A DNA stretch of 35,061 nucleotides from an uncultured Treponema sp. (GCA_946628495.1 CAMOWQ010000009.1:1-35061); one strand, 5' to 3'. Numbered from the stretch's first letter, positions 5,723 through 28,574 are shown. Translations and numbers: made by a program. Notes: a model not told the origin generated them from the sequence alone.

Positions 5723-7258
5723 CTAACGTGCGTATTCAATAATTCGCGTTTCGCGTATCATTGTAAGACGGATTCGTCCTGGATAACGCAAGTCATTTTC
5801 AATCTGTTTTGCAATATTTCTTGCCAATTCCTTAACATCGCTGTCTGGAATTTTTTCATTATTTACAAGAATTCTAAGCTCTCGTCCAGCCTGAATTGCA
5901 TAAGCCTTTTCTACACCTGGGAATGCTTCTGCAATCGCTTCAAGATTTTCCAGACGTTTTACATAATTGTCGATTGTTTCCCTTCTGGCACCAGGTCGTG
6001 CAGCAGATATTGCATCGGCAATCTGTACGATAATAGCTTCAACTGTTTCTGCAGGAATATCATTATGATGAGCACCAATTGCATTAACGACCCGAGGTTC
6101 TTCTCCCATCTTTCTTGCAATTTCTGCACCAACTTCTGCGTGGTTCTGATCAGAATCAGTTTCTGCTCCTTTACCAATATCATGAAGAACAGCAGCACGT
6201 TTTGCAAGTTCTCGGTTTGCGCCAACCTCTGCGGCAATCATGCTTGCTGCCATTGCAACTTCTTTTGAATGTGTAAGAACGTTTTGACCATAACTTGTTC
6301 TGAAATACAGACGGCCAAGAGCCCTTATACCTTCCGTATTCATATTATGAATGCCAAGATCAAATAACGCTTTTTCACCTTCTTCATAAATCTTGTTCTG
6401 AACTTCATGTGTAACTTTCTGAACAACCTCTTCAATGCGGGCAGGATGAATACGTCCGTCCGAAATAAGGCGTTCCAAAGATTCTTTTGCAATTTCCTTG
6501 CGAACCGGGTCAAAACAAGAAATTACAACTGCTTCCGGAGTATCATCAATAATGATGTCAACGCCAGTTAAAGTTTCAAGCGTTCTAATATTACGTCCTT
6601 CCCTACCAATGATACGGCCTTTCATTTCGTCGCTTGGAAGTGATACAGTTGTAACAGTAATGTCACTGGTTGTTTCAGGAGCAATTCTCTGAAGAGTAGT
6701 AATTAAAATATCTTTTGCTTTTTTTTCAGCGGTAAGCTGTGCATCCTGCTCTATCTTGTTGATTAAGGCCTGAGCATCGTGGCGTGCATCGTTTTCAAGA
6801 TTTTTAATTATTAAATCTTTTGCTTCCTGTGCAGACAAACCTGAAATTCTTTCAAGTTCCTGTCTGTAAAGTTCCTCTTGCTTAGAAAGTGCAATTTCCT
6901 TTTTTTCCATTGCAGCTTTTCTTTCAGCATACTCTTTTTCGTTTTTTTCAAATTCAGCGGCTTTCTGGTCAAGCAACTCTTCTTTTTTGTTTACTCTCGC
7001 TTCGTAACGCTGAACTTCGGCACGTCGCTCACGATTTTCCTTTTCCTGCTGGTTTCGTTCACGAATGAGTTCATCTTTTGCATTTAACAAAATTTCTTTT
7101 TTCTGAGCTTCAGCTTCTCTAATAGCATCCTGTTTAACACGTTCTGCTTTCTGTTCTGATGCAGTTAATTGAAATCTGGCATAAATCCAGCGAATAATCC
7201 ATCCAAAAACGATTCCTACAACAGGGAGAGCGATGTACAGAATTAAATTCAAATTCAT
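5723..7258 (-). CDS. rny: Ribonuclease Y
   Basis: RNase Y is a membrane-anchored endoribonuclease that starts mRNA decay in bacteria lacking or supplementing RNase E. The 511-residue protein shows the canonical order: one N-terminal membrane helix (about 5-25), a long charged coiled coil (30-185), a KH RNA-binding domain with the GREG loop in KGRIIGREGRNIRTLE (213-229), and an HD metal-dependent phosphodiesterase domain with the HD pair at 359-360 (AAVLHDIGKGAETD). Length is close to the usual 520. The ATG at 7258 has AGGAG seven bases upstream. It is transcribed alone from a strong promoter (7300-7329) and ends in a rho-independent terminator, with an additional stem-loop in its 3' UTR. Confidence 0.97.
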   Translation of the reverse strand: MNLNLILYIALPVVGIVFGWIIRWIYARFQLTASEQKAERVKQDAIREAEAQKKEILLNAKDELIRERNQQEKENRERRAEVQRYEARVNKKEELLDQKAAEFEKNEKEYAERKAAMEKKEIALSKQEELYRQELERISGLSAQEAKDLIIKNLENDARHDAQALINKIEQDAQLTAEKKAKDILITTLQRIAPETTSDITVTTVSLPSDEMKGRIIGREGRNIRTLETLTGVDIIIDDTPEAVVISCFDPVRKEIAKESLERLISDGRIHPARIEEVVQKVTHEVQNKIYEEGEKALFDLGIHNMNTEGIRALGRLYFRTSYGQNVLTHSKEVAMAASMIAAEVGANRELAKRAAVLHDIGKGAETDSDQNHAEVGAEIARKMGEEPRVVNAIGAHHNDIPAETVEAIIVQIADAISAARPGARRETIDNYVKRLENLEAIAEAFPGVEKAYAIQAGRELRILVNNEKIPDSDVKELARNIAKQIENDLRYPGRIRLTMIRETRIIEYAR

Positions 7259-7360: not shown

Positions 7361-9241
7361 CTACCAGCGGTTACCAAAGAAAATAAGATTATGTTTTGTA
7401 CGCCAACGAGAAAGCACATACGCATCTTCGCCATAAGGCGTTTGATTTCTGTCTGTACGCTGCTGATGAACGACATTCATATTCCTTACTTCTATGCATA
7501 AACGATATGAATCCCCCTTTAATGCATAAACAATAAGAGACTCCCTTGAAACAATTCTTTCTGAATAAGAGGCCACACAATTATGCAGGTTCGAGGCAAC
7601 ATTTACCAACTCATTATAATCTTTTGGGAGAATAAATTTAAAACCGTCAATTTCATCTTCCAAAGCAGATTCCGCCGCCGTATATGAATACTGAACATTT
7701 GGATGAGCAATGCGTCTTGTAACATCCGAAAGCACATCATGATTATATTCAGTAAAGCCGTCGCGAAGAATTTGCACGCGTACATTATAATCAATATTTT
7801 CAAAATGACGGCAAAACATTCTTAAAGCATCTTCACCCATACTGCTACAACGATAATGCATATAATTCCTACCATCATAGGTCTCAAAAAAATCTTCTTC
7901 TAGAACAGTACGTTTTATAAGATTCCAGGAAGCTTTTTCGCCTTTTAAAGGAATTATCCAGGTAAAGAAATCCTTAAAATAATGAAAATTACGATGAAAC
8001 ACAGAGCATATATCTTCATGCTTTAGAATTTGCTGAATTATATTAACATCCTTAAATCCAAAATCGCACAAATATTTATAGGCACGAAGTACATTTGAAT
8101 AATTTTCCAGATAAATTTTACGCAGAGATTTAAATGTTTTAATTCCCAGAACTTCGCAATATTTATAATAACAGTTTGGATCAAATCTATACGGTTCAAG
8201 AAATTCCGTTACATTCTTTTCTTCATCATAAGCAAAATATTCCTTATCAAACATTATTTCAAAAAATAAACGCGGCTCATAAGGAATATAAAGAATAGCT
8301 TTTAAAATCATTCCATACACAGAAGTCTTATTACAACGATGATTGGTCATCCACCAGTAAGAAAATGCCATCTTATCAGGAAGTTCCGACATATTCATAA
8401 AATTGATTTTTCGATTAAGCAGCTTGCATGTAAGTTCCTGTAAACGAAGCATACAACATTCATAAACTTCATCTGGATAATACATGCCGGAAGCAACATT
8501 TTCAGAACTTGCCAATGAATAGATTTTAAATGCCTGATTTTTTATCTGTCTGTAAACACCGTTTTTTACATCATATTCTTCGCTTGTAACAAGAAACGGT
8601 ATTTCTTTCATAACAGATTCTGAATAAACAAATTCCTTTTCTAAAGCCATGCGGTTCAGCGAATACTGCTCAAGTATAAGCGTAAGATTTTTTGAATCGA
8701 CTATGAGTCTGTAAAACAAAACATCCTTATGTACTTTAAAGGGGAAATTTTTAGCAACTTTGCTTTTCTGTTTTCTTTCTTCTAAATCTTTCTGAAAATT
8801 AAGATATTTTTTATATTCTTTTATATATTTCCGTAAATCTTCGGATGAAAGTTCGTGCAATAATAAATCATGCCGTTCTATTTTTCTGAATAAATCCGAA
8901 CCATAATATTTTGTCGAATAATACTTAGAACCACCAGATGCAAGCTCATCTTTTGATAAATAAACATATTTTATTCCTTTTAGATTGCAGCGGCTTGTAA
9001 CAACAGTTTCATCAGTTTGCTCAAGAATTCGTTCCCAGCAAAAATGTTCAGGACAAAAACAATACAGTCCGTCATCACAAAGCCTTTTGATAAGAAGCGT
9101 ATTCTGTTCCAAAGGATTGTATTCAACAAGAGAAAAACTTTCTTCAGCAAAATTCCTGCAAAACCAAAATTCATCAACAGTATTTTTTGCATGAAACAAA
9201 GAGATGTTCGACAGAAAATGTTTATTTGCAAAAAAGTTCAT
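7361..9241 (-). CDS. PcfJ-like protein (C-terminal PcfJ domain), function unknown
   Basis: The last 100 or so of 626 residues resemble the PcfJ-like family, named after a protein on the enterococcal conjugative plasmid pCF10. The recognisable features are ILPKDYNELVNVASNLHNCV with a Leu-x-x-Cys-Val core, then a Tyr/Ser region, VYALKGDSYRLCIEVRN, and HQQRTDRNQTP followed by an RW. Function in this family is not established. The first 500 residues are rich in aromatic and charged residues and show no motif I know: no P-loop, no zinc-binding cluster with clear spacing, no signal peptide or membrane helix. It follows the FliG-like gene by 17 bases on the same strand, so the two form an operon. 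The ATG at 9241 has only a weak GGGG upstream. No conjugation, phage or relaxase gene is nearby, so here it looks chromosomal rather than part of a mobile element. Confidence 0.6.
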   Translation of the reverse strand: MNFFANKHFLSNISLFHAKNTVDEFWFCRNFAEESFSLVEYNPLEQNTLLIKRLCDDGLYCFCPEHFCWERILEQTDETVVTSRCNLKGIKYVYLSKDELASGGSKYYSTKYYGSDLFRKIERHDLLLHELSSEDLRKYIKEYKKYLNFQKDLEERKQKSKVAKNFPFKVHKDVLFYRLIVDSKNLTLILEQYSLNRMALEKEFVYSESVMKEIPFLVTSEEYDVKNGVYRQIKNQAFKIYSLASSENVASGMYYPDEVYECCMLRLQELTCKLLNRKINFMNMSELPDKMAFSYWWMTNHRCNKTSVYGMILKAILYIPYEPRLFFEIMFDKEYFAYDEEKNVTEFLEPYRFDPNCYYKYCEVLGIKTFKSLRKIYLENYSNVLRAYKYLCDFGFKDVNIIQQILKHEDICSVFHRNFHYFKDFFTWIIPLKGEKASWNLIKRTVLEEDFFETYDGRNYMHYRCSSMGEDALRMFCRHFENIDYNVRVQILRDGFTEYNHDVLSDVTRRIAHPNVQYSYTAAESALEDEIDGFKFILPKDYNELVNVASNLHNCVASYSERIVSRESLIVYALKGDSYRLCIEVRNMNVVHQQRTDRNQTPYGEDAYVLSRWRTKHNLIFFGNRW

Positions 9242-14011: not shown

Positions 14012-16339
14012 ATGAGTCGACTTTCACGATATTTAAGTTCTTCAGGTAGAAACATCGCATCTATTTCAACAACAGAATGTTACGCAATGACCTGCTATTT
14101 TCAAGCCGCTCAGTATTACAACGATGACGGAGATTTTTCCAGCAGTGTAAACATTTATATAGAACTTTTTAAGCGCATGAACATTACAAAAAAGGTCGAA
14201 AAACTCATTTCGGAATATTTAGAGCAGCTTATCGCAACAGAAAACCTTATTCCAATACCCGAAGATTACGAACCTGAAGTTACAAGTATTCGAAGCAGCA
14301 GACGACTTATTGTTGAATTAGGTACAACTTTTCCTCATACAAAAATTCCTGTTCTATATAAAGAAGATTCAACCGTATTTTCACGATATACAGAACTCTG
14401 CACAAACCAGCTTAACATTGACATTTGCAGATGCTTAATTGCAACCGAAGACATGAATTTCTTCAACAAATTGATACAGGCAACATTTTTTGAAAACAAA
14501 CCGATTAACTCAATTCAAAAAAGGCTTCTTTTTCAAGACTTACCGGTAAAATACAAAAAAGCCCTTGATAATACGGATGAAATAAATTTTATTGCAGATG
14601 CAGCAAATCTTTCTGATATAGAAAAAAAATATCTTCTATTATTATACAGATTTAAAACCATAGAAAAATTCAGTGATACAAACGATGATTCTTTTAACCT
14701 TATAACCTGCAGCGTTCTAAATATAAATCAGCGGGAATTTACACAAATGACAAATTCCGCAAGCAAACTTTCCTCATTCGGTTTTATTACACATCCGACA
14801 AGTATTAACAACGATTTGATTGAATGCATACAGAATCAGGACATAAACCTGTTTTTTTCCGACACAATAAAAGAAGTTTCCTGCAAAGAAGCCTACAAAC
14901 TCGAAAGCTACAATATTCCCGAAAATATTACGCAGGTTATGGAACGTTTTGTTCAGAGCACTTTTCCAACATCCATGCTTTTTTACGGTAAGCCAGGAAC
15001 AGGAAAATCTGAATATGCAAAATCACTTATTGCAGCCTCTGGCAAAAAAGCCTACATTTTGCGAAGCGATTTAAATTTTTCTTCTGACAACAATATTCTT
15101 GGAAAACTTAATTTCTATCTTTCGCTTAAAAAAGATGATTCTGTGCTTATTATTGACGAAGCAGACAAACTTCTTGAAACCCGCGATTTTAACTTTTTCG
15201 GAATGGCAACTCCTTCTCCAAAAAAAGGATTGATTAACAGCATGCTGGAAAATGCGCTTGGCACTTCAATATGGATTGTTAATTTTTCAAGTCAGATTGA
15301 TGATTCTACAAAACGAAGGTTCAATTTATCGTACAGATTTGATGAAATGTCATCCGAACAGCTGCGTTCAATTGCTTCCTCAAAACTAAAACCTCTTGAA
15401 ATAAGCGACGAAGTTCATTCTAAAATTCTTGATTTTCTTGGCAAATACAATGTTACAGGCTCTTCCGTAGACAATATTGCAAAAACAATCCGCGCAATGA
15501 ATTGTTCAAACGATGACGAACTTATAAACAACATTCAGTTCGTTCTAAAAGAAAATGCAAATCTTTTAAGCGGAAATCCTAAAATGCGCGAAAACGTTAC
15601 CGGAAACTATGAACTTTCAGTATTAAACACATCAATAAAACCTGAACGCATAATCCGCATGATTCAGAATGCAATTAAATTTTCTTCTAAGCATAAAAAT
15701 TCAGAAAATGGAATCCGAATGCTTTTTTATGGATTGAGCGGAACTGGTAAAACTGAACTTGCACGCTATATTTCCGAAACAATGAATAAAAAAATTCTTA
15801 TAAAGCGCGCATCTGATATATTGAACAAATACGTTGGCGAAAATGAGCAGAATATTAAAAATGCCTTTGAAGAAGCAGAACGAAACGACCAGATTCTTTT
15901 GTTTGATGAAGCCGATTCATTTTTTTCCGACAGAAATTCTGCAAATACTTCCTGGGAACGCACGCTTGTAAATGAATTCCTTACACAAATGGAAGAATTT
16001 TCGGGCATCCTGATATGCACGACAAATCTCCGCAATATTATGGATGCCGCTTTGCAGAGAAGATTCCATCTTTGCGTTGAATTCAAGCCGCTTACAATTG
16101 AAGGCATAACAAGTCTTCTTGAACGATATTTTTCTGAATACACTTTTACCGAAAAACAAATTTCGCAGTTGAATGCCTATGACACAATAACTCCGGGCGA
16201 TTTTGGCTCTCTTTTTGGAAGAATACGTTTTATGGATGAAGAAGACATCAATTCCGATTTCCTTATTGAAGAACTTATTGCAATGCAGGAAGAGAAAAAC
16301 ATGAACGGAAGCGGCAGGAAAGTAGGATTTTCTTTATAA
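14012..16339 (+). CDS. Tandem AAA ATPase, unknown substrate
   Basis: A 775-residue cytoplasmic protein with two AAA ATPase modules. The N-terminal 300 residues are helical and unrecognised, beginning with a possible TPR-like segment (CYFQAAQYYNDDGDFSSSVNIYIELF). Module 1 has Walker A GKPGTGKS (326-333), Walker B VLIIDEAD (378-385) and RRF (435-437). Module 2 has Walker A GLSGTGKT (574-581), a KYVGENE pore-loop-like motif (606-612), Walker B ILLFDEAD (628-635) and the arginine-finger DAALQRRF (678-685). Module 2 is the more canonical (Cdc48/FtsH-like); module 1 has a shortened sensor region and lacks the KYVGE motif, so it may act structurally or as a regulatory ring. No protease or metal site is seen, so it is likely an unfoldase or remodelling enzyme. 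It stands alone, 147 bases before glnN, which has its own promoter. Confidence 0.8.
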   Translation: MSRLSRYLSSSGRNIASISTTECYAMTCYFQAAQYYNDDGDFSSSVNIYIELFKRMNITKKVEKLISEYLEQLIATENLIPIPEDYEPEVTSIRSSRRLIVELGTTFPHTKIPVLYKEDSTVFSRYTELCTNQLNIDICRCLIATEDMNFFNKLIQATFFENKPINSIQKRLLFQDLPVKYKKALDNTDEINFIADAANLSDIEKKYLLLLYRFKTIEKFSDTNDDSFNLITCSVLNINQREFTQMTNSASKLSSFGFITHPTSINNDLIECIQNQDINLFFSDTIKEVSCKEAYKLESYNIPENITQVMERFVQSTFPTSMLFYGKPGTGKSEYAKSLIAASGKKAYILRSDLNFSSDNNILGKLNFYLSLKKDDSVLIIDEADKLLETRDFNFFGMATPSPKKGLINSMLENALGTSIWIVNFSSQIDDSTKRRFNLSYRFDEMSSEQLRSIASSKLKPLEISDEVHSKILDFLGKYNVTGSSVDNIAKTIRAMNCSNDDELINNIQFVLKENANLLSGNPKMRENVTGNYELSVLNTSIKPERIIRMIQNAIKFSSKHKNSENGIRMLFYGLSGTGKTELARYISETMNKKILIKRASDILNKYVGENEQNIKNAFEEAERNDQILLFDEADSFFSDRNSANTSWERTLVNEFLTQMEEFSGILICTTNLRNIMDAALQRRFHLCVEFKPLTIEGITSLLERYFSEYTFTEKQISQLNAYDTITPGDFGSLFGRIRFMDEEDINSDFLIEELIAMQEEKNMNGSGRKVGFSL

Positions 16340-16486: not shown

Positions 16487-18577
16487 ATGGCAAATACAAA
16501 TGTTCCTGAACTTTTTGGCAGTTTGGTTTTTAATCAGTCGGTAATGAAGGAAATGCTGCCTTCTCAAACCTACAAGGCTCTTAAGCATACAATGGACGAA
16601 GGTACACCGCTTGACCTTGAAGCAGCAAATCAGATTGCAGAGGCCATGAAAACCTGGGCTATTTCTAAAGGTGCAACACATTATTCACACTGGTTCCAGC
16701 CACTCACCGGTATTACAGCTGAAAAGCATGACTCCTTCCTTACACCTTCAGATGAAGGCAAAATTCTGATGAGTTTTTCCGGAAAGGAACTGATTAAAGG
16801 TGAACCTGATGCTTCAAGCTTCCCTAACGGTGGTAAGCGTTCAACCTTTGAAGCCCGCGGTTACACTGTATGGGACCCGACTTCTTATCCTTTTGTAAAA
16901 GACCACACACTTTGTATTCCTACAGCCTTCTGTTCATATAACGGAGAAGCTCTTGATAAAAAGACTCCTCTCCTCCGCTCTATGGAAGCAATTAACGAAC
17001 AAAGCCTTCGTGTTCTCAAGCTTTTTGGAAATCAGGCAAAGCACGTTACTACAACAATGGGACCTGAGCAGGAATATTTCTTAGTTGATGAAAAGCTCTA
17101 CCAGAAGCGCAAAGACCTTAAAATGTGCGGCCGTACCCTTTTTGGTGCCCGCCCTGTAAAAGGTCAGGAAATGGACGACCAGTACTTTGCAGCCATCAAG
17201 CCTCGCGTTATCAAATATATGGAAGATTTGAACGAAGAGCTCTGGAAGCTTGGAATCTACGCAAAGACAGAACACAACGAAGCCGCTCCTGCCCAGCACG
17301 AAATGGCTCCAATCTTTACAACAAGTAACCTTGCCGCAGACCAGAATCAGCTGACAATGGAAATCATGAAAAAGGTAGCCCGCCGCCACGGCCTTATCTG
17401 CCTCCTTCACGAAAAACCATTTGCAGGTGTAAACGGAAGCGGTAAACATAACAACTGGTCTATTGCAACAGACCTGGGTGAAAATCTTTTTGCACCTGGA
17501 AAAACTCCACGCGATAATGCACAGTTCCTTTTGTTCCTCACTGCAGTTATTAAAGCTGTAGATGATAATCAGGACCTGCTCCGCTACTCTGTTGCCTCTG
17601 CCGGAAACGACCACCGCCTTGGAGCAAACGAAGCGCCTCCAGCAATTGTTTCAATTTACGTAGGAGATGAACTCGACGCCATTCTTAAGGCAATTAAAGA
17701 TGGCACAGACTATAACGGAAAAGCCGGCGTAAAAATGACAATTGGTGCAGATGTACTTCCACCAATTCCAAAGGATTCTACAGACCGCAACCGAACTTCT
17801 CCATTTGCCTTTACAGGAAACCGCTTTGAGTTCCGTTCAGTAGGAAGTGCCCTTTCTATCAGCGGACCAAATACAATCCTCAACGCAATTCTTGCAGATA
17901 CACTCCGTGCCTTTGCAGATGAACTTGAGCAGTCAAAGAACTTTGACGAAGACCTGCAGAAGCTCATTAAGCGCGAAATTACAGCTCACTGGCGCATTCT
18001 CTTCAACGGAAACGGTTACGGCCAGGAATGGATTGAAGAAGCAGAACGCCGCGGCCTCAAGAATTACCGCACAACTCCAAAAGCAATTGAGCACTACATC
18101 GACCAGAAGAATATCGACCTCTTCACAAGACTTGGAATCTACACTCCGGAAGAAATGAAGAGCCACTACGATATCAAACTGGAAAAATACTGCCAGGTTA
18201 TAAATATTGAATCTAACACAATGCTGGAGATGGTTCACAAAGATATCATTCCGGCAGCCTTCAAATACCTGAATGTTCTTGCAGATACAGAGTTTAAGAT
18301 GCAGCGCGTTATGACAATGTGCGACGCCGGCCTTAAGCTTATGGAAAAGCTGAATACTCTGGTAAATGATCTTTCAAACAAGGCAGACGAACTTGCAAAA
18401 AAGCACGAAGAAACCCGTGCCATTACAGACCTCATGCAGCGTGCCCATGCATATGCAAAGGTAGTAATTCCTGCTATGGAAGAAGTTCGCGCTATAGCTG
18501 ACCAGATTGAACCTTTACTTGGCGAAGAATACAAACCATTCCCAAGTTACGAAGATTTGCTTTATAGCGTACAGTAG
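16487..18577 (+). CDS. glnN: Glutamine synthetase, type III
   Basis: Glutamine synthetase condenses ammonia with glutamate using ATP, the entry point of nitrogen assimilation. At 696 residues this is the large GSIII class (about 700-730), not the 450-470 residue GSI. Signs are the GSIII-specific N-terminus ([10 protein letters not shown] and the [12 protein letters not shown] block), the catalytic-core motifs [37 protein letters not shown] and [13 protein letters not shown], plus the FEFRSVGSA stretch and a long C-terminal helical region (about 560-690). Its codon choice is richer in C-ending and CGC codons than its neighbours, as expected for a strongly expressed gene. It has its own promoter and a GGAG site; no nitrogen regulator (GlnB, GlnR) is adjacent. 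The following 290 bases are GC-rich and structured. Confidence 0.97.
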
Positions 18578-18864
18578 ATGTGTAAGCCCTCTGGCGGGCG
18601 GTGTTTTATAGCAGGACGTTAAGAAAATTGCGAAAGTAATTTTCAGGTCTACAACTTTTTATCGGGCACATCCGCCGGCTTCGCCGGCGGCCGGGCTTTT
18701 CGGGACTCCGGCTTCCGCCTCCGAACACGCTACCGCGTGTTTTCGCTTAGCTCCTCCCTACAATCCCTTGTGCAAATTCTCATTAAAACAAGTTTTTTTC
18801 AAAAAGTACCAACTAAATCATCCAAATACAGTCATCATCTCTCATATCTTGCATACATAAAGTC
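18578..18864. repeat. GC-rich, hairpin-dense non-coding element, probable intergenic repeat
   Basis: No gene is seen here. From about 18585 to 18765 the base composition is clearly richer in G+C than the AT-rich flanks. It packs several exact hairpins: 18623-18629 with 18638-18644; an 8-bp GC stem, 18672-18679 with 18683-18690; 18690-18694 with 18708-18712; and 18724-18730 with 18735-18741. The structure resembles dispersed intergenic repeats (REP/MITE-like), but only one copy lies in this window, so repeat status is inference. It could also stop glnN transcription, for which no classical U-tract terminator is present. The part after 18765 is AT-rich with no recognisable signal. Confidence 0.45.
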
Positions 18865-19989
18865 TTAACGTTTCTTAAAAATCTGAGACTTTGAATTATA
18901 CGTTCCCAACGCACTAACATCTCTAGAATCAAAAAATTCATTAAGCTCGGACGGGGAAAAAAGAGTTGTAATTGGTATTATTGTTTTTGTTTTTTCTATC
19001 CTTTCTCTAACATAATAAGACGGTTCCTGCCGGCGACTATACGCTTCGGCATTATTTTTTGTACCGCTATACCAGATATTTAATGCATTTGAAAGAGCTT
19101 CCGTCTGTGTATTATAATAATCGATAAGTACACTAGATAACGCAGATAGGGCCATTTCTCCTTTCTGGAGATTTTGAATATAGTAATAGATAATAGCATC
19201 TTCCTTTTTAAGATTCTTTTCTTTCGAAATCTTTTCTATTGCACCTGTAACTTGTATATACTTCTGATAATCTTCATTTGTAGTTATACCCAAGACACGA
19301 GCAGAATTAAAATCCGTATAATCTGAAAATCCATTCTCTATAGCCAAATAATATTCATTTCCTTTTTCAAATCCATTTTCTTTTGCAAACTTCCAATCAG
19401 ACTTATTCTTAAAACCTTTATCTGTATATTCAAGATACTCTCTATAATCTGCATAATTAGAATAGCCCAAGTTTTTTGCACTATAATAAGCTGATGAATC
19501 AGACTTGCTTCCCGAATTATTCGGACTTCGCGTATTTACAAATCCTTTTTTATAAGCATCCTTGCAATCATCAACAGAAGAAAAAGAATTACGCGTATAA
19601 TAATAGTAAGTCTCAGAATTATTAAAGCCAAGAGCAATTGCTTTGTTATAATCTGATCCATTTTGAAATTTCATAGCGAATCCTTTCTTATAATCTCCTA
19701 AAGTTACATACCCTTCCATTGAAAAAGAAAAATATACTGAACCTACTATTATGTACAACATCAAGCCATCACATACTTTCTTATTATACTCATGTGACGA
19801 ATCTATTGATTTTTGAATATATCCTATTCTAATACCATATTCATTAATAATAGATTCAAGATCTTCAATATTTTTTATTTCAATTACAGGAACATTTTTT
19901 ATACTATCAATCTCTATGTATCTGATTTCGCAAAACAATGATGTAATAAATACTGAAAATACAATAATAGCACTAAAAAACTTCTTCAC
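18865..19989 (-). CDS. Exported protein with 14-residue repeats, function unknown
   Basis: A 374-residue exported protein. I chose the GTG at 19989, giving the signal sequence MKKFFSAIIVFSVFITSLFC, because GGAG lies seven bases before it and overlaps the codons of the longer TTG-started frame. After a mixed region and a hydrophobic patch (about 76-90), residues 94-249 hold at least six to eight tandem units of 14 residues with consensus G-(F/Y)-x4-(D/E)-aromatic-x2-A-x3. Good examples are GFKNKSDWKFAKEN, GFEKGNEYYLAIEN and GFSDYTDFNSARVL, each directly adjoining the next. Sel1 and TPR units are longer (about 34-36), so this is a different repeat. The C-terminal third is helical and unrecognised. 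It lies downstream of the transglutaminase-like lipoprotein gene (22 bases between them) and is probably cotranscribed. Function unknown; a binding or scaffold role is a guess. Confidence 0.7.
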   Translation of the reverse strand: MKKFFSAIIVFSVFITSLFCEIRYIEIDSIKNVPVIEIKNIEDLESIINEYGIRIGYIQKSIDSSHEYNKKVCDGLMLYIIVGSVYFSFSMEGYVTLGDYKKGFAMKFQNGSDYNKAIALGFNNSETYYYYTRNSFSSVDDCKDAYKKGFVNTRSPNNSGSKSDSSAYYSAKNLGYSNYADYREYLEYTDKGFKNKSDWKFAKENGFEKGNEYYLAIENGFSDYTDFNSARVLGITTNEDYQKYIQVTGAIEKISKEKNLKKEDAIIYYYIQNLQKGEMALSALSSVLIDYYNTQTEALSNALNIWYSGTKNNAEAYSRRQEPSYYVRERIEKTKTIIPITTLFSPSELNEFFDSRDVSALGTYNSKSQIFKKR

Positions 19990-20011
19990 TTTCAAACTCC
20001 TTATCAAAAGT

Positions 20012-21445
20012 TTATTTCACCATAAAAGTTGCAAGTGTTTCATAGTTTCCTTTACCGTTAGCAGAAAGACCTATAGAAATCTGTTTTACATTTTTGGGAA
20101 TCTCCACTTCTCCCGTAAAATTACCGTTACCGTCATTTTCAAGTTGAATAAACTTATTACCAGCAATTACTGCCACAAAAGCCTTATCTTCGCTATAAAC
20201 ATTAAAAAAAATCTTTTCTCCTGCAATAAGAGTCATTTGCTTTGGCGTTATCAATACAGTATTTTTTGACTTTACAGTATATACATTCGGATATTTTATG
20301 CTGCTTGCCTCTGAGGCTTCAACAAGAAATTGTCCGCAACTTTGGCCGCTTCTGCCGCCTTGTTTCATATAATATACAGTAACCTTATAGCTACCAGATG
20401 AAGGAAATTGCATTTCTGTTTTTATAATTCCATCTTTTTTTTCTGTCCAAACAGCGTTATTCACAACTGTTCCACCGATAGCATTCACCTGATATGTAAG
20501 AATCCAGTCATCTTTCACTTTGTATTCTTTTACAAAACAACTATCAACATTGTTAATTTTTTTTACAGATGAAAAATCTTCCCCTGTAAGTTCAAACAAT
20601 TTTGGTCTGAAATCTGGAAGCGAAGAAAATTCTGTAACAGACAATGGTGGCTGAATCAATTGATTTTTTCCGTCATCAGGAAAATGAGTATAAACAAAAT
20701 GTTCTGGTTTCAAAAAAAGCCATTCAGTATTATATTTTTGTTCTGATTTTTTTCCGTTCATATACCCAGAATCCCATGTACAATCAACCAAATACCAGCA
20801 GTCGTCTATTTTTACAATATTCCACGCATGATTAGAATCCATAGGATTTTCCGAAGAAATATCAGTACCAACACCTCGTGCATAACCGCTCACTTTTTGT
20901 GCAGAAACTTCCAATTCATTCATATACCGCAAAAACAGATTTGCATATCCTTCACAAACAGCTGTTTTCGTTTTTAAAACATTCTGCCAGCTTTGATCAG
21001 GAATTGTATTAGCCCAGAAATTTTTTGCATCATAGCTAACTAAAAGACAAACTGCATCATGAGCCATTTTTACACGTTCAAAATCATTTACAGCAACTTC
21101 ATTTATTTTTGCAGCAATATTTTTAACATATTCATTTTGATCCGTTGTTCTTAAGGAATCAATTTTATTTGATTTAATAAAAGTCTGAATTGTTTTATCT
21201 GCTTTATCAGTTCGATAAGAATATGCTAATTCATACGATTCTGGAGTTTTATAAAAAGCAGTTTTTGACTTACCTCCAGAACCACTTTTATCTGAATCAG
21301 ACTTCTGTCCTTTAGTTACACCGTCAAGAACAGTAGAAATTTTATCCACCATCAGGTTTAGTGTTTCACAACTTGTAAAAATCATAGAGAGTATAAAAAC
21401 TTCACAAAGCATAAAAACAATTTTTTTACCCACAAACTTCCTCAT
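20012..21445 (-). CDS. Transglutaminase-like lipoprotein
   Basis: A 477-residue predicted lipoprotein with a transglutaminase-like (papain-fold) domain. Signal region 1-25 ends MIFTSC (Cys26, relaxed lipobox), then a Ser/Gly/Lys-rich linker (about 45-65). The catalytic core shows the Cys-His-Asp triad: Cys164 in TKTAVCEGYANLF, His206 in DSNHAWNIVKI and Asp221 in CWYLVDCTWDSG. Such bacterial domains usually act as proteases or peptidoglycan- or protein-modifying enzymes rather than true cross-linkers. The C-terminal half (about 300-477) looks like two beta-sandwich modules (YKVKDDWILTYQVNAIGG..., and TLIAGEKIFFNVYSED...). The ATG at 21445 was chosen over an upstream one because GGAGG precedes it by seven bases. 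It is divergent from the XRE gene, with operator-like repeats between, and is followed by the 14-residue-repeat protein. Confidence 0.82.
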   Translation of the reverse strand: MRKFVGKKIVFMLCEVFILSMIFTSCETLNLMVDKISTVLDGVTKGQKSDSDKSGSGGKSKTAFYKTPESYELAYSYRTDKADKTIQTFIKSNKIDSLRTTDQNEYVKNIAAKINEVAVNDFERVKMAHDAVCLLVSYDAKNFWANTIPDQSWQNVLKTKTAVCEGYANLFLRYMNELEVSAQKVSGYARGVGTDISSENPMDSNHAWNIVKIDDCWYLVDCTWDSGYMNGKKSEQKYNTEWLFLKPEHFVYTHFPDDGKNQLIQPPLSVTEFSSLPDFRPKLFELTGEDFSSVKKINNVDSCFVKEYKVKDDWILTYQVNAIGGTVVNNAVWTEKKDGIIKTEMQFPSSGSYKVTVYYMKQGGRSGQSCGQFLVEASEASSIKYPNVYTVKSKNTVLITPKQMTLIAGEKIFFNVYSEDKAFVAVIAGNKFIQLENDGNGNFTGEVEIPKNVKQISIGLSANGKGNYETLATFMVK

Positions 21446-21504
21446 ATAAAATCCTCCAATAGAAAAGAATATTTCACCATATAGGTAATATTGTATCATA
21501 CAAA

Positions 21505-21524
21505 TTTTGCTGTTCATAGCAAAA
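21505..21524. promoter_or_regulatory. Perfect inverted repeat, candidate operator over the lipoprotein promoter
   Basis: TTTTGCT (21505-21511) and AGCAAAA (21518-21524) form a perfect 7-bp inverted repeat with a 6-base spacer. On the minus strand a TACAAT -10 box for the lipoprotein gene lies at 21495-21490, putting the repeat over the -35 position. Repression by a DNA-binding protein is plausible. Confidence 0.4.
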
Positions 21525-21547
21525 CCTTTTCTAAATACCTATTATTT

Positions 21548-21563
21548 GGTAATATTTATTACC
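21548..21563. promoter_or_regulatory. GGTAAT-N4-ATTACC inverted repeat, candidate XRE operator
   Basis: GGTAAT (21548-21553) and ATTACC (21558-21563) are a perfect inverted repeat with a 4-base spacer. Additional half-sites occur in the same gap: GGTAATATT at 21484-21492 and ATACC at 21535-21539. Clustering of the same half-site between a divergent gene pair, one of them an XRE regulator, suggests an autoregulatory operator. Confidence 0.45.
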
Positions 21564-21573
21564 TTTGCAAAAG

Positions 21574-21602
21574 TTCCAAGAATTCTAACTCAATGCAATA
21601 AT
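21574..21602 (+). promoter_or_regulatory. Candidate extended -10 promoter of the XRE gene
   Basis: TTCCAA (21574-21579), a 17-base spacer and TGC-AATAAT (21594-21602). The seventh base after the box is the A of the ATG at 21609, and no Shine-Dalgarno is present, so a leaderless message is possible. Confidence 0.4.
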
Positions 21603-21608
21603 AATTTT

Positions 21609-21974
21609 ATGGAAGAAACGGAACTTGATATTCCAAGCTTATTCGGAAAAAACGTACAGAAATACAGAAAAATGGCAGGCCTTACTCAGGCAGAACTTTC
21701 AAAGCAGCTTGAGATTACGCAGAAACATCTCTCTATCATCGAAACAGGAACGCAATTTGCATCTGCCACTCTCATTGCCCGAATTGCAAAAGAACTCAAT
21801 GTTCCACCGGCGGCTCTTTTTGGCGACGATTTAACTCAAGAATATTTTGATAAGCTTTATACCAACATTACGGCTCATTTTGACAATAAAATTAACTGGT
21901 TGCGAACAGCACTTTATAATGACATTGTTGGCGATATAACACTTCGATTAAGCTCTATGCCGGAACAAAAATAA
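21609..21974 (+). CDS. XRE-family transcriptional regulator
   Basis: A 121-residue cytoplasmic DNA-binding protein. Residues 12-70 are a Cro/CI-type helix-turn-helix: LFGKNVQKYRKMAGLTQAEL, then SKQLEITQKHLSIIETG and IARIAKELNVPPAALFG. The remaining 45 residues are helical and may form a dimerisation tail. The frame is open further upstream, but I chose the ATG at 21609 because the HTH fold begins just after it and the upstream residues do not resemble protein. It is divergent from the transglutaminase-like lipoprotein gene, and the intervening 163 bases hold several GGTAAT half-sites and another inverted repeat, so it probably regulates itself and that operon. Ligand or signal unknown. Confidence 0.85.
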   Translation: MEETELDIPSLFGKNVQKYRKMAGLTQAELSKQLEITQKHLSIIETGTQFASATLIARIAKELNVPPAALFGDDLTQEYFDKLYTNITAHFDNKINWLRTALYNDIVGDITLRLSSMPEQK

Positions 21975-22116: not shown

Positions 22117-23178
22117 ATGAAAAAATTCAACGGATTTATGCATGGTGTAAACCTTGGCGGATGGTATTCGCAGTGCAATCATACAGAAGAACGTTACGAC
22201 AATTTTATAAAACAGGAAGATTTTTCTACAATTAAGAGCTGGGGTTTAGACCATGTGCGTCTGCCAGTTGATTACAATCTTATACAGGAAGCCGACGGAA
22301 CTTTTAAAGAAAGCGGATTCAAACGCATTCAGAATGCAATTGACTGGTGCAAACAGAACAAACTCAACATGATTCTTGATTTGCATAAAACAGCAGGATA
22401 TTCCTTTGATTCAGGCGAAAAAGAAAACGGATTTTTTGATAATGAGAAACTTCAGGAACGTTTTTATGAAATCTGGGAATCTTTTGCGAAACGTTTTGCA
22501 ACTTCCTTTGATGATGCTGATTACGGAAACGGCATTCACGGCGAAATCTGTTTTGAACTTTTGAATGAAGTAACAGACAAATCATACTGTAAAAAATGGA
22601 ACGCAATTGCCCGCACCTGTATAGAAAGGATTCGCAAAATTGCGCCAACAACAAAAATTCTTGTAGGAAGTTACTGGAACAATTCCCTTGCCTCTGTAAA
22701 AGATTTGGATGAACCTTACGACGAAAACATTGTGTACAATTTCCATTGCTATGACCCGCTTTTGTTCACTCATCAGGGAGCACTGTGGATTGGTCCGAAT
22801 ATGAATCCAGATTTCAGGTTTCCGCTTAAATCAACTTTTGCTGAATACGACAAAATGACTCAGGAAAAAGTTGGTCAGATTGGAATTACATTTAAGGATT
22901 TTAAGCAGGATGCAACTGTTGACGAAGCATATTTTGAACAGATTTTCAGCGAAGCCGTTCAGATTGCAGAATCTCGAAACGTACTTCTTTACTGCGGTGA
23001 ATACGGTGTAATCGACAATACCGACACAAAAGATATCCTTGAATGGTATAAATTAATCAGCAATACCTTCAACCGTCACGGCATTGGTCGTGCAGCCTGG
23101 TCTTTCCGCCAGATGAACTTCGGACTTTCAGATGCATACCTCGATAACGTCCGCAGCGAATTGATTAAATATTTGTAA
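22117..23178 (+). CDS. Glycoside hydrolase family 5 beta-glucanase-like enzyme, cytoplasmic
   Basis: A 353-residue (beta/alpha)8-barrel glycosidase of the GH5 type. Visible landmarks: GVNLGGWY at the start of the barrel, DHVRLPVDYN, NMILDLHKTAG, the acid/base Glu151 in CFELLNEVTDK, FHCYDPLLFTHQG (substrate-binding His/Tyr), the nucleophile Glu295 in LLYCGEYGVID, and a closing AAWSFR. These assign retaining chemistry on beta-glucosidic links; exo-1,3-glucanase-like and endoglucanase-like members look alike at this level, so specificity is open. No signal peptide or lipobox is present, so it is probably intracellular and acts on imported oligosaccharides. The ATG at 22117 has GGGAG six bases upstream. 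It is a single gene, converging on purD with a shared terminator; a TATAAT box lies at 22063-22068. Confidence 0.88.
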   Translation: MKKFNGFMHGVNLGGWYSQCNHTEERYDNFIKQEDFSTIKSWGLDHVRLPVDYNLIQEADGTFKESGFKRIQNAIDWCKQNKLNMILDLHKTAGYSFDSGEKENGFFDNEKLQERFYEIWESFAKRFATSFDDADYGNGIHGEICFELLNEVTDKSYCKKWNAIARTCIERIRKIAPTTKILVGSYWNNSLASVKDLDEPYDENIVYNFHCYDPLLFTHQGALWIGPNMNPDFRFPLKSTFAEYDKMTQEKVGQIGITFKDFKQDATVDEAYFEQIFSEAVQIAESRNVLLYCGEYGVIDNTDTKDILEWYKLISNTFNRHGIGRAAWSFRQMNFGLSDAYLDNVRSELIKYL

Positions 23179-23307: not shown

Positions 23308-24645
23308 TTAAAGTTTTCCGCTTTCAGCAGCTCCAGGAAGACCTATATCTTTTCTGTAGAATGCATTTTCAAAATGAACGCCGGACAAACCTTCATACGC
23401 TTTATCCCATGCTTCTTTGAAAGTTGAACCGTATGCACTGCATGCAAGAACGCGTCCACCGCTTGTAAGAAGCTGTGTCTTGTCTTTTCCGCTTACAGCT
23501 CCCGCTACAAATATCTTTGAACCGCTTGCTTTTATTACAGATTCATCAAATGTGATTTCGCATCCTTTTTTATAACTTGCAGGATATCCGCCGCTTACTA
23601 CAACTGGAGCAACCTGATAACCTCTTTTCCATTTTAAATTAAATTCTTTAAGGGAACCGTTCAAAATTGACGTACACAAAGCTGCAAAATCAAAATCCAT
23701 AAGAGGAAGAACAGCCTGAGTTTCAGGATCTCCAAGACGAACATTGTATTCAAGAAGTTTCGGTCCATTTTTTGTAAGCATAACACCAAAGAAAATAAAT
23801 CCACGATAGTCAAACTTTTCTTTGATAAGCCCGTTTAAAGTTGGTGTAAGGATATCATCACCAAACTGCATCATGTCTTTTGCAGTAACATCATCCAATG
23901 GAGAAACAGCACCCATTCCACCAGTATTAGGACCTTTTGCACCGTCCATAAGACGTTTATGATCGCGCGCCGGCTGGAACACTTTTATTGTTGCGTTTCC
24001 ACTCATTGCATATTCAGGAGTAACAGAAACAGCTGCAAGTACTGAAATTTCAACACCTTCAAGATAATCTTCTATTACCAGTTTTTTTCCTGCATTGCCT
24101 ACACGACCGTTATCCATAAGGTCTTCTACAGCAGCAATTGCTTCTTCAACAGTTGCGGCAACAACAACGCCTTTTCCGGCAGCAAGTCCGTCGGCTTTTA
24201 CTACAACAGGAGCTCCATGCTGTTTAATATACTCGCAGGCAGCCTCTTTATTTACAAAAGTTTCGCTGGCGGCACAGGCAACTCCGTATTTTTTCATAAA
24301 TGCCTTTGATAAATCTTTGCTGGCTTCAAGCTGAGCGGCAGCTTTTTTAGGACCAACACAAGGAATATCTGCATCCCAGAAAATATCGGCAAGACCTTCT
24401 GCAAGAGGATCTTCAGGACCGATTACAGCCATACGGCATCCTTCGTGCTTTGCAATTGCAACATAAGGATTTTCGCCTTCTTTGATATAGTCACAAGAAT
24501 CCGGATTGATATTCTGGCATTTTAACTCATTTGCAGTTCCTCCATTACCAGGAACAACAATAATTTTATCAACAACTGAACTTTGGGCTAATTTCCAGCA
24601 GATGGTGTGTTCACGTCCGCCACTGCCTACGACTATTATATTCAT
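23308..24645 (-). CDS. purD: Phosphoribosylamine--glycine ligase
   Basis: PurD (GAR synthetase) joins phosphoribosylamine and glycine with ATP in the second step of purine synthesis. The 445-residue product starts MNIIVVGSGGREHTICWKL, the standard N-terminus, has the PGNGGTANE motif, and carries the ATP-grasp domain (about 105-330): VVKADGLAAGKGVVVA, the PARDHKRLMDGAKGPNTGG signature, and LEYNVRLGDPETQ with the metal-binding residues. Length is slightly above the usual 420-430, due to an insertion near residues 40-65 (SCDYIKEGENPYVAI). It is alone here: no other pur gene is nearby. There is no ribosome binding site before the ATG, and a TATAAA box lies eight bases upstream of it, so the message may have a very short leader or none. 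Confidence 0.97.
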   Translation of the reverse strand: MNIIVVGSGGREHTICWKLAQSSVVDKIIVVPGNGGTANELKCQNINPDSCDYIKEGENPYVAIAKHEGCRMAVIGPEDPLAEGLADIFWDADIPCVGPKKAAAQLEASKDLSKAFMKKYGVACAASETFVNKEAACEYIKQHGAPVVVKADGLAAGKGVVVAATVEEAIAAVEDLMDNGRVGNAGKKLVIEDYLEGVEISVLAAVSVTPEYAMSGNATIKVFQPARDHKRLMDGAKGPNTGGMGAVSPLDDVTAKDMMQFGDDILTPTLNGLIKEKFDYRGFIFFGVMLTKNGPKLLEYNVRLGDPETQAVLPLMDFDFAALCTSILNGSLKEFNLKWKRGYQVAPVVVSGGYPASYKKGCEITFDESVIKASGSKIFVAGAVSGKDKTQLLTSGGRVLACSAYGSTFKEAWDKAYEGLSGVHFENAFYRKDIGLPGAAESGKL

Positions 24646-24872: not shown

Positions 24873-27800
24873 ATGATTTTTGATACATCAGAATCACTTG
24901 CAAAACTCTATCAAAAATTTTTTTCAATAATTTTTATAATCTGTCTGCTCGCATCCTGTTCAAATCCATTAAACAAATCTGACAATTCTGATAACTTCAT
25001 CGAAAATAAAAAAATTGAAACAAAATATACAACCATAAACGGCACTCTGGATATAACCTCAGTTTATCCAAACTCTTATCGCACGGCATTTCCTTCTCTT
25101 CCAGCATCAATAACATACTCTATAAAAGCAGTTGGAACAGACACTGTAAACCCTGCAGCCGATGTAGAAGCAACTATAATAAACGCAAACACTGAACCAA
25201 TTACATTTTTATTGAACATTCCAACTCCAGAAACTACAAAGAAATATAAAATCAAAGCAAGCGTAATTTCCGACGGCAAAGAAATACTAACCGGCGAAAG
25301 CGACGAATTTTCCTTAAATCCAGAAAATTCAGTAATATCAAAAGATATTGAAATTTCTGTGACTCAGGCATCAGGCAAAACGGGAAACATTGCTCTTGAA
25401 ATAGGAATTGAAGACGGCTCGGGAATTACTAAATGCAGGATTGACATAGATGATACACAAAACGCTGCAACACCTTATGTAAATTCTAATAAGATTACCT
25501 TTACAAAAAATGGCCTTGCCAGTGGTGTACACACTGTAGTTTTTAAATTTACAGATAATGCCAGCAAGGTATTATATTCATTTACCGAAACCATAAATGT
25601 TTTTGATAACCTTACTACAAACACCTGGGTGCAGAACGGAAACGAGCCCTGGTTTACTACCACCGGCACCGGTTCTTCAAAAGTAACAACCTGCCGCATT
25701 ACAAAAGAGATGGTAGAAAGGTATGCCCTTACACAATTTTGGGTAGACCCAACTGCAGCAAACGATAACGGTTCCGGCTCTTTTTTCCAGCCAAAGAAAA
25801 CCCTTACGGGTGCCCTCTCTCTGCTGCATGATGCAGGCAAGGATTACACAATTTATATAAAAGGCACGCTAGATGGGCAGACACATGGTGTGCTGTCAAT
25901 AACAGATGAGCTTTCTTCAACTGCAGGCGATACAAAAGCTTATCATGCACACTCTCTCACAATCTGTGGTGCTACGGGCTTGAATGGCAGTGGTATACCA
26001 CAGGATGTAATTAACGCAAAAGGTGTTGATATAGCTTTATCAATAACAACACAAGTACCTGTTACCATAAAAAACTTAAAAATTATGCGTGGCTATTCTG
26101 AAGATTCTGGAGGAGGTATCTATTCAACAGGAGACCTTACTCTTGATAGCGGAACTCTTATCACACAGAATACCGCAAAATATTATGGCGGCGGAGTTGC
26201 AAACGATGGCGGAAAACTCACTATAAAAAGTGGTGTTGTTATTTCTTCGAATGAAGTGTTATATGCAAAAAAAGGAACTGATGATTGTGGTGGCGGTGGA
26301 GTTTATAATAGAAACGGAACTCTTATAATGAGTGGAGGAACTATAAAATCAAATACTGCAGAAGGCTGTGGCGGCGGTATTTTTAATATAATTGACGATG
26401 GAGAAAAACTTTGTGTAGCCTACATCTATGGCGATGCTGTAATTGGCGGTGATACCGCGGCTGATGGAAATAAATCACTAACGACAGTCAATGGTATAGG
26501 CGGCGGTGGGATTTATAATAAAGCCGGACTTATTTACTTTGGATGTGCAGGTTATTTAGCAACTGGTAATCAAATGGAAGATGTAACATATTATGATCCA
26601 GATCCTGCAAAAATCATTCCATGGACTGGTAAACTTTCACATAATACTACTGGAGGTTGGGGTGGAGGAATAATCAATTATCCTAGCAGTCTAGCTCCAA
26701 ACACTTATGGTCACAAAGTAACTGGTATTATTCATGTTCAGTCTGGAAAAATCAGTTCAAATTTTGCAACAATGGGTGGTGGAATTGCACATCATAACGG
26801 TACTTTATTCTATATTCACGGCGGTACTATCGGTGGTGATTCTGCAAGCGAAGGAAATTCTGCCACAAATAAAGGTGGTGGTATTTATACCATGGGTAAG
26901 TTCTATTTAAAAGGTGGAACGGTTTCATATAATACTGCAGATCTAGGGGGCGGTGTTTGTGGTGATAATGGTCTTCTTATGTACGGAGGTACAATAAAAA
27001 ACAATACTGCAACAACTCATGGTGGTGGTGTTTTTGTTGATTATCGTTCTTTACAGATTAGAGAAAGCGCATATATTCCAGCTGGCAGCGATGGTAAGAA
27101 TGATGTGTATTTAAATAAACGTGATACAGAAGCTGATCCTGCTGTAGTTTACTTAGTTGACCCCCTTACTCCTCCAGAAGAATGTACAGACGGAATTATT
27201 GCCTCAATTACTCCGAGTGCCTATACAGAAGACACTCCCATTTTTACAATTTCCGCACCTGCTACTGCCGCAGAAATCTCTCACTTCAAAGTAACTCCGA
27301 ATGGAACGCAGGATTGGGGGATAACCACAGCAGGAAAATTACGTGAAGGGGTGGCTTTGCCTTCTTCTTACAGTAGCATGGAAAGCGGTAAAACCTATTT
27401 TGTTTCAGATTCTTCTGGTATTGGCAAAATTGCAGAGTTTTCAAGCTCTGGTTATAACTTTAGTGGAGTAAAATTAAAAATTGAATCAAACGTTACAATT
27501 GACACCGCTTGGACTCCAATTGGAAATTCAACTGCATTCAGCGGAACTTTTGATGGAAATGGAAAGACTGTTACATTCGCTGTAGGATCAAATGCTGAGG
27601 CGGTTTTTGGAACTGTAAATGGAACTGTAAAGAACCTTAAAGTTGCCGGAAGTACAAGCGTAGCCGGCATTGCAAAAATCGCCAATACTTCTGCAGTTAT
27701 AGAAAACTGTGAAAATTCGGCAACGGTAACAAGCACTGAACAATATTGTGCAGGCATTGTTGCAGAGGTAAACAATGCAACAATAAAAGGTTGTGTGAAC

Positions 27801-28574
27801 AAGGGAACAGTTATTAGTAATTATGAGGCGACTTCAAATGTAGGTATTAGTCTAAAAGGTGCCGGTGGCATTACAGGTCCTGTTAAAAATGGTGGAGTTG
27901 TAGACTCTTGCGTAAATGAAGGAAATGTTACAGGTCTTGGTGCAGGTGGAATTACATCTTTTATAGATTCTAGATGTACAATCAGAAATTCACAAAATTC
28001 AGGAGATATAACTTCAACAGAACGCCATGCGGGAGGAATTGCTGGTGTAGCAGCAGGAGATGGTGCTGATATTGAGCAAGCCTCCCACATAGATAACTGC
28101 TTCAACAGTGGTTCTGTAACTGCCTCAGGTATGGGAGTAAGTGTTTATGCCGGAGGAATTGTCGGACAACTTGGCGGAGGAAATGCTGCATGGGCCAAAA
28201 ACTGTCTAAATATAGGAAATGTTTCTTTAAGTCCAAGCGCAGCATCAGGAAGTCATGCGGGTGCACTTTTTGGTCGTAAAGACAACTATGCCAGAATAGA
28301 TTTCTGTTATTATAAAGAGGGGTGCGCAGGTACTGCAAAAGGAGTTGGCGGTTCGTCGCTTGATACGAGAAATCAATGTATAAAAGCAACACAAACTGGA
28401 CTGAATGATGCTGTTAATTATGTTGAATTAACGCTTAACGAAACTACTTATTCCGCTGACTCAAGTACTGTACTTTCACTTCTAAATGCATGGGTAAGCG
28501 CAAACAGCACAAACGGATTATACTTAGTATGGGAATCAGGCACAAACCACTGGCCTAAACTAAAAACAGAGTAA
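24873..28574 (+). CDS. Large surface lipoprotein with beta-helix and GLUG-like repeats
   Basis: A 1233-residue predicted lipoprotein; the signal ends LLASC with lipidated Cys29. After a low-complexity spacer come Ig-like or chitobiase-type strands (about 50-270), then a region starting FWVDPTAANDNGSGSFFQPKKTL that resembles the entry strand of a right-handed beta-helix. Residues about 405-745 contain many GG-rich turns (SGGGIYS, YGGGVAND, GGGGVYNRN, GGGIFN, MGGGIAHHNG, KGGGIYTMG), each separated by about 25-40 residues, as in polymorphic outer-membrane and adhesin-like proteins. Residues about 890-1145 are Cys-containing GLUG-like units (IENCENSATVTS, IKGCVNKGTV, VDSCVNEGNVTG, IDNCFNSGSV, AKNCLNIGNVS). 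Such proteins usually sit on the cell surface and bind hosts, other cells or polysaccharide; the partner is unknown. It has its own promoter. No catalytic motif was recognised. Confidence 0.8.
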   Translation: MIFDTSESLAKLYQKFFSIIFIICLLASCSNPLNKSDNSDNFIENKKIETKYTTINGTLDITSVYPNSYRTAFPSLPASITYSIKAVGTDTVNPAADVEATIINANTEPITFLLNIPTPETTKKYKIKASVISDGKEILTGESDEFSLNPENSVISKDIEISVTQASGKTGNIALEIGIEDGSGITKCRIDIDDTQNAATPYVNSNKITFTKNGLASGVHTVVFKFTDNASKVLYSFTETINVFDNLTTNTWVQNGNEPWFTTTGTGSSKVTTCRITKEMVERYALTQFWVDPTAANDNGSGSFFQPKKTLTGALSLLHDAGKDYTIYIKGTLDGQTHGVLSITDELSSTAGDTKAYHAHSLTICGATGLNGSGIPQDVINAKGVDIALSITTQVPVTIKNLKIMRGYSEDSGGGIYSTGDLTLDSGTLITQNTAKYYGGGVANDGGKLTIKSGVVISSNEVLYAKKGTDDCGGGGVYNRNGTLIMSGGTIKSNTAEGCGGGIFNIIDDGEKLCVAYIYGDAVIGGDTAADGNKSLTTVNGIGGGGIYNKAGLIYFGCAGYLATGNQMEDVTYYDPDPAKIIPWTGKLSHNTTGGWGGGIINYPSSLAPNTYGHKVTGIIHVQSGKISSNFATMGGGIAHHNGTLFYIHGGTIGGDSASEGNSATNKGGGIYTMGKFYLKGGTVSYNTADLGGGVCGDNGLLMYGGTIKNNTATTHGGGVFVDYRSLQIRESAYIPAGSDGKNDVYLNKRDTEADPAVVYLVDPLTPPEECTDGIIASITPSAYTEDTPIFTISAPATAAEISHFKVTPNGTQDWGITTAGKLREGVALPSSYSSMESGKTYFVSDSSGIGKIAEFSSSGYNFSGVKLKIESNVTIDTAWTPIGNSTAFSGTFDGNGKTVTFAVGSNAEAVFGTVNGTVKNLKVAGSTSVAGIAKIANTSAVIENCENSATVTSTEQYCAGIVAEVNNATIKGCVNKGTVISNYEATSNVGISLKGAGGITGPVKNGGVVDSCVNEGNVTGLGAGGITSFIDSRCTIRNSQNSGDITSTERHAGGIAGVAAGDGADIEQASHIDNCFNSGSVTASGMGVSVYAGGIVGQLGGGNAAWAKNCLNIGNVSLSPSAASGSHAGALFGRKDNYARIDFCYYKEGCAGTAKGVGGSSLDTRNQCIKATQTGLNDAVNYVELTLNETTYSADSSTVLSLLNAWVSANSTNGLYLVWESGTNHWPKLKTE

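Follow-up and report, generated by a model that had tools for sequence, protein, structure and literature searches.

A candidate regulatory locus of gut Treponema with an XRE-family regulator, two conserved operators and exchangeable exported cargo

Systems in which a single XRE repressor controls a divergent operon combine the divergent layout of genes with palindromic operators located near both promoters. The transglutaminase (TGase) fold, which is relevant to the cargo of the locus described here, also includes peptidases and inactive members. In Listeria, CI/Cro-like XREs control the metzincin Mtz and the TIMP-like lipoprotein Tim (PMC8235301). In the literature that we searched on TGase lipoproteins of Treponema, XRE and TglA, there was no account of the system considered below, in which an XRE-family regulator of gut Treponema is located opposite to varying sets of exported proteins.

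The locus and its regulator

The window analysed in this work, i.e., the whole stretch of 35,061 nucleotides, belongs to a Treponema-like assembly (2.57 Mb, 203 contigs, 82% complete). A first-pass annotation recognized in it a divergent XRE regulator, a TGase-fold lipoprotein and an exported repeat protein, and all three are present where it placed them, together with the following features:

16487-18577, plus strand: glutamine synthetase (GS), left anchor, named by eye
18865-19989, minus strand: cargo 2, exported 14-residue-repeat protein (18-member alignment, AF2)
20012-21445, minus strand: cargo 1, transglutaminase-like (TG-like) lipoprotein of 477 aa, ATG at 21445 (PF01841, AF2, triad)
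21484-21496: candidate operator O1, GGTAATATTGTAT, GT-to-GT offset to O2 of 64 bp
21505-21524: inverted repeat TTTTGCT-6-AGCAAAA, chance match
21548-21563: candidate operator O2, perfect 16-bp palindrome GGTAATATTTATTACC, 61 bp 5' of the XRE start
21609-21974, plus strand: XRE-family regulator of 121 aa, ATG at 21609 (Pfam, family alignment)
22120-23178, plus strand: GH5 family glycosidase, right anchor 1 (PF00150, 3.4e-35; synteny)
23308-24645, minus strand: purD, right anchor 2, named by eye (synteny)

The regulator carries an XRE helix-turn-helix (HTH) at residues 12-71, has a helical, variable C-terminus and passes the curated Pfam cut-offs of HTH_19 (38.2 bits; cut-off 30.2) and HTH_3 (37.8 bits; cut-off 23), while the alignment of its family contains the invariant QKHLS..E.G.QFASA. 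The scan of this alignment against one genome per species, kept until similarity fell to the generic XRE level, yielded 41 loci. Their sources are Treponema or unclassified Spirochaetaceae/Spirochaetales, with one bearing just the label 'uncultured bacterium', and T. bryantii NK4A124, T. zioleckii, T. saccharophilum and T. berlinense are among them. With the window this makes 42 loci, essentially all from gut Treponema; many of the genomes are metagenome-assembled, whereas L133, L162, L167 and L172 (L numbers designate individual loci) derive from cultured strains, and, because the loci are related, the locus counts given below are not independent. Inspection of the neighbourhoods around the matches demonstrated that the XRE family is located opposite to different exported-protein genes in different genomes, and in some loci the cargo lies 3' of the XRE gene on the same strand. 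Of 146 genomes from the genus, 61 have a match to the TG-like protein and 21 to the repeat protein, and a few dozen match the XRE strongly.

The place of the locus in the chromosome can be followed by its anchors. In seven genomes with the same locus GS is 89-98% identical to that of the window, purD is 78-87% identical across the same-locus genomes, and the XREs found within the GS...purD locus are 69-77% identical to ours. No tRNA was found in the window; in L115 and L116 a short conserved ORF, tRNA-like in look, is present at the locus. Downstream of GS there are two dispersed repeats, one of ~60 bp (18579-18656) with many copies in the host genome and one of ~90 bp, GC-rich (18678-18768), with two other copies there; the copies of both (18579-18769) are 77-84% identical. 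Located on the cargo side of the locus, they could serve recombination. Elsewhere in the window, we noted a 775-aa protein with two AAA ATPase regions (14012-16339, plus strand) that partially matches the anti-phage ATPase IteA (106 bits against a cut-off of 510), an apparently beta-helix-type-repeat-rich, lipoprotein-like protein of 1233 aa with weak family matches (24873-28574, plus strand) and a PcfJ-like protein (7361-9241, minus strand; PF14284, 5.8e-6).

Two further observations concern XRE genes at other loci. A second XRE subfamily (MDIKKLFGANLRKYRKERSLSQ...) occurs in L122, L124 and L106 (XRE genes at 6434, plus strand, 7692, plus strand, and 5443, minus strand), where it is also opposite TG-like or repeat-protein cargo, at another recurrent chromosomal place, and has conserved sites of its own, ACCTATTATAC ... 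AACACAACCTTTTATTAGG. In the locus L183/L100, a 454-aa ORF with a TnpB-type-transposon look lies between an XRE fragment and OMP-like plus repeat cargo.

Conserved sites in the intergenic region

It was claimed in the first-pass annotation that the gap between the divergent genes carries three or more GGTAAT half-sites, and three exact ones were indeed counted in its 163 bp (21484, 21548 and, in reverse, 21558), as compared to 0.13 expected from Markov-1 randomised sequences, none of 2000 of which reached three. Across the 42 loci, the consensus of O2 is RGTAATAWWTATTACY, usually ~60-100 bp 5' of the XRE gene. Its best match has at least 14 of 16 positions, a threshold set on the same data, in 29 loci and all 16 in 16 loci; 14 positions are reached in 0.15% of Markov-1 randomised sequences. 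In the host genome, the only match to the perfect O2 without mismatch is the one at 21548-21563, and thus the regulator appears to be dedicated to this locus.

The motif of O1 is GTAATATTWTAA, and its opposite strand reads TTATAATATTAC, i.e., a -10-like TATAAT and then ATTAC. In the window, O1 overlaps the predicted -10 element of the cargo promoter (TACAAT, minus strand, 21495-21490), with TATAAT at this place in relatives; for this reason, part of the conservation and spacing of O1 may stem from the promoter rather than from XRE binding. Of the 33 loci with both O2 (at least 13 of 16) and a divergent gene, 25 match at least 10 of 12 positions of O1, again a threshold set on the same data. 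The GT-to-GT offset between O1 and O2, searched from 40 to 89, is 52-54 in 14 of these 25 loci, 63-64 in nine and elsewhere in two; the two offset classes, which were noticed post hoc, are about one helical turn apart. In L138 and L144, where the upstream sequence is complete and there is no divergent gene, O2 is perfect and O1 is absent, and the operators are degenerate or absent in L151, L153, L163 and L168. Generic scans for promoters and terminators gave signal at the level of shuffled sequence, and the assignment of the promoter therefore rests on conservation across loci. The co-conservation of both sites with the XRE suggests that the regulator directly binds O1 and O2.

The gap also contains the perfect inverted repeat that had been singled out as a separate feature. 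The repeat exists, but its significance does not hold: since 28% of randomised sequences hold one and the arms are not conserved (neither TTTTGCT nor AGCAAAA was found in seven related intergenic regions), it is no more than a chance occurrence.

Exported cargo and its exchange

The lipoprotein has the lipobox FTSC and matches PF01841 (1.6e-10; 41.6 bits against a gathering cut-off of 23). Its AF2 model (pLDDT 87, pTM 0.78) consists of a TGase domain (~72-290) and two Ig-like domains (297-377 and 397-476), and the Cys-His-Asp triad, which was described as complete, is there as C164, H206 and D221. Of 16 aligned TG-like members, 14 keep the whole triad, whereas one protein of L156 and one of L158 have lost it, with Ser in place of Cys and Trp or Cys in place of His. 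The TG-like gene of L135 (4580-5845) appears to be truncated because of an in-frame TAG. The best solved relatives are the ciliary FAP246 of Chlamydomonas (7n6g; VIA Z 21.8 over 389 residues, rmsd 5.4; profile E 1.8e-10) and TglA of Streptococcus pyogenes (9crn; VIA Z 17.2 over 154 residues, rmsd 2.5; profile E 1.1e-16), with which the lipoprotein has the TGase fold in common, followed by the TGase 4xz7 (Z 10.6) and factor XIII/TG2 (~8). Some Treponema TG-like members, in contrast, are without catalytic residues. A related TGase region is also found in the NCBIfam MAG6410 family transglutaminase-related lipoprotein (NF045980; 1.7e-19); membership in this family was rejected, with 69.7 bits against a cut-off of 450 and just 146 residues matched.

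The second cargo protein had been described as exported and built of 14-residue repeats, and both properties stand, while the TTG at 20007 initially taken as its start gives way to the GTG at 19989, which is the probable start because of its better ribosome-binding site (AAGGAG). The protein has a Sec-type signal peptide, an N-terminal a/b domain, single-helix repeats at 96-146 and 195-245 and a C-terminal domain extending to residue 372. In the AF2 model (pLDDT 85), the repeat helices begin at 96, 110, 124 and 138 and at 195, 209, 223 and 237, i.e., every 14 residues. Pfam gave no family above cut-off and no consistent match; Foldseek against PDB and viral models returned none at E<=0.001 and nothing better than E 0.37; and the best VIA Z against solved structures is 5.8. 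A winged-helix identity of the C-terminus was considered and dropped as too weak (DUF4364 0.014, wHTH_TTC3 0.11), and ribosomal-protein-like and Egalitarian matches (Z 5-6) are within the range of common arrangements. These repeat proteins occur in Treponema, in two other genera of the same taxonomic family and, as a single contig-edge fragment, elsewhere in the phylum; they are lineage-restricted.

These two proteins are part of a larger repertoire. In the 33 loci with a divergent gene, the first such gene encodes a TG-like protein (13 loci), a repeat protein (seven), an OMP-like small exported protein (six), the F6 small lipoprotein (five), a PH/TM protein (F3; one) or an unrelated one (one), the names OMP-like and PH/TM being given by appearance. 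According to a crude signal-peptide regex that over-calls, the first cargo is export-like in 30 of 33 loci vs 34% of other ORFs. CAP-domain lipoproteins (PF00188, 9.4e-13) are also found in these operons, as is a non-specific endonuclease (PF01223, 7.4e-48). The suggestion that a regulated surface system is encoded here gains support from the conserved linkage, the two conserved operators and the exported cargo in about 40 Treponema loci.

In the first-pass annotation, this system was a set of three genes in which the enzyme could act on the repeat protein, and one alternative is therefore a fixed, XRE-controlled system whose TG-like lipoprotein cross-links or processes either the repeat protein or the cell wall. 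The intact triad and TGase fold speak for it, as does the fact that the TG-like and repeat genes adjoin in the window (22-bp gap) and in L135, L136 and L137. The three genes are linked in other genomes as well, but in a modular way: by a hand count, about ten loci have both genes, seven TG only, six repeat only and ten neither, which is close to independence. Moreover, L156 and L158 keep the repeat gene but have TG-like proteins without Cys and His, even if a second, intact copy is present in L156. The unit is not the trio, since several cargo families are interchangeable and the TG-like and repeat genes represent just two of them. That these two genes co-occur about as often as independent cargo would makes a dedicated enzyme-substrate pair, and the fixed system with it, unlikely.

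How the cargo is exchanged can be seen where the surroundings are constant. The GS...purD locus alone has at least four cargo sets: TG plus repeat in the window, L136 and L137 (with a nuclease in the latter), OMP-like plus F3 in L133, F6 plus F3 in L134 and OMP-like with F3 on the other side in L140; in L138 TG is 3' of the XRE, and L144 is without TG or divergent cargo. Loci whose XRE and operators are almost the same can still differ in cargo, and two pairs show gene-precise swaps. L142 and L147 share 92% identity over the 319 bp of the XRE and both operators; identity stops at O1, beyond which one locus continues with a repeat-protein gene and the other with a TG-like gene, and the far flanks are again 84-97% identical. 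The second pair, L133 and L134, matches in the F3 gene (91%) and in the intergenic block (87%), which enclose an OMP-like gene vs an F6 lipoprotein gene, with identity breaking near the gene ends. Among close pairs (XRE-block DNA identity of at least 82%, cargo known on both sides), eleven differ in cargo and three, from one clade, are alike. On the XRE tree, many branches of which are weak, the cargo type requires at least 11 changes as compared to a mean of 17.5 for shuffled labels; cargo labels are thus more clustered than shuffled ones and yet change often, which means that the cargo is partly inherited and repeatedly replaced.

Alternative origins, proposed mechanism and known systems

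The variation of cargo from strain to strain would also be expected if the locus were left over from a prophage or another mobile element, with the XRE as a CI-like repressor and moron-like cargo. The XRE resembles phage repressors in PHROGs (5e-11), and the Listeria CI/Cro-like XREs that control a secreted protease and a lipoprotein (PMC8235301) offer a precedent. No integrase, Cro partner or ImmA-like gene was seen beside the XRE, however; in the window locus, the gene opposed to the XRE is the lipoprotein gene rather than a second XRE (Cro) gene. The repeat protein is unmatched in 50,697 phage records, the XRE has one weak match (38%) on viral contigs, and the chromosomal anchors are constant, all of which makes such an origin improbable. 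The plasmid library did not provide a home for the system either. It is very unlikely that the locus is toxin-antitoxin-like or serves anti-phage defence: XRE proteins are common as antitoxins and defence regulators and PADLOC HTH models match the XRE HTH (1e-13), but these matches are generic, the cargo is exported, and none of the seven cargo or neighbour proteins compared with PADLOC, the TG-like and repeat proteins among them, had a match. Equally hard to sustain is an ordinary envelope or stress operon beside an unrelated regulator, with promoter elements as the shared sites, as might be thought from the overlap of O1 with the -10 element and the AT-rich genome, because the O2 palindrome, which is no promoter element, has a single occurrence in the genome and remains with the XRE when the cargo changes.

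As judged from sequence comparison, the locus is probably a self-contained regulatory locus with exchangeable exported cargo, the XRE being a local repressor that gates a surface cassette. The XRE dimers would bind O1 and O2 together on the same face of DNA, possibly through a short loop or bridge, and the bound XRE would repress the cargo promoter and adjust its own, so that output would be low or switch-like. The cargo genes would be replaced through homologous recombination, for which the conserved operator/XRE block and the downstream flank would provide the sites. The cargo would function in the periplasm or on the cell surface: the TG-like lipoprotein would be an acyl-transferring enzyme or a peptidase of the Cys-His-Asp type, equipped with Ig-like binding domains, and the repeat protein would provide a scaffold for binding. 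Selection at the surface, exerted by host, phage, predators, competitors or substrates, may account for the diversity of the cargo. In this model, we infer the repression, the signal and the function of the cargo.

A bolder proposal, which we put forward tentatively, is that in gut Treponema a constant XRE and two phased operators gate, perhaps bistably, a surface-protein slot whose genes are swapped gene-precisely by recombination. This arrangement would be diversity-generating and antigenic-variation-like in effect, with an undescribed repeat family among the cargo. If this is true, commensal spirochetes offer a testable regulator-operator pair and a defined locus where surface proteins swap under one promoter, from which one would learn how surface diversity arises in gut Treponema, and the O2/XRE pair becomes a handle for finding unknown surface proteins by regulation, not homology. 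The locus also adds a lineage-restricted repeat family and TG-like members without catalytic residues.

The nearest working analogue of the Treponema system is the Mtz/Tim locus of Listeria, where, as here, an XRE-controlled local operon encodes a secreted enzyme and a lipoprotein. The Listeria locus, however, has two opposed XREs and a phage origin, whereas in Treponema there is one XRE, no Cro and no phage relatives were found, and the cargo is exchangeable and unrelated. In layout and operators the Treponema locus is like the systems with a single XRE repressor, from which it differs by its two helical-phase spacings and by the swapping of cargo across strains.
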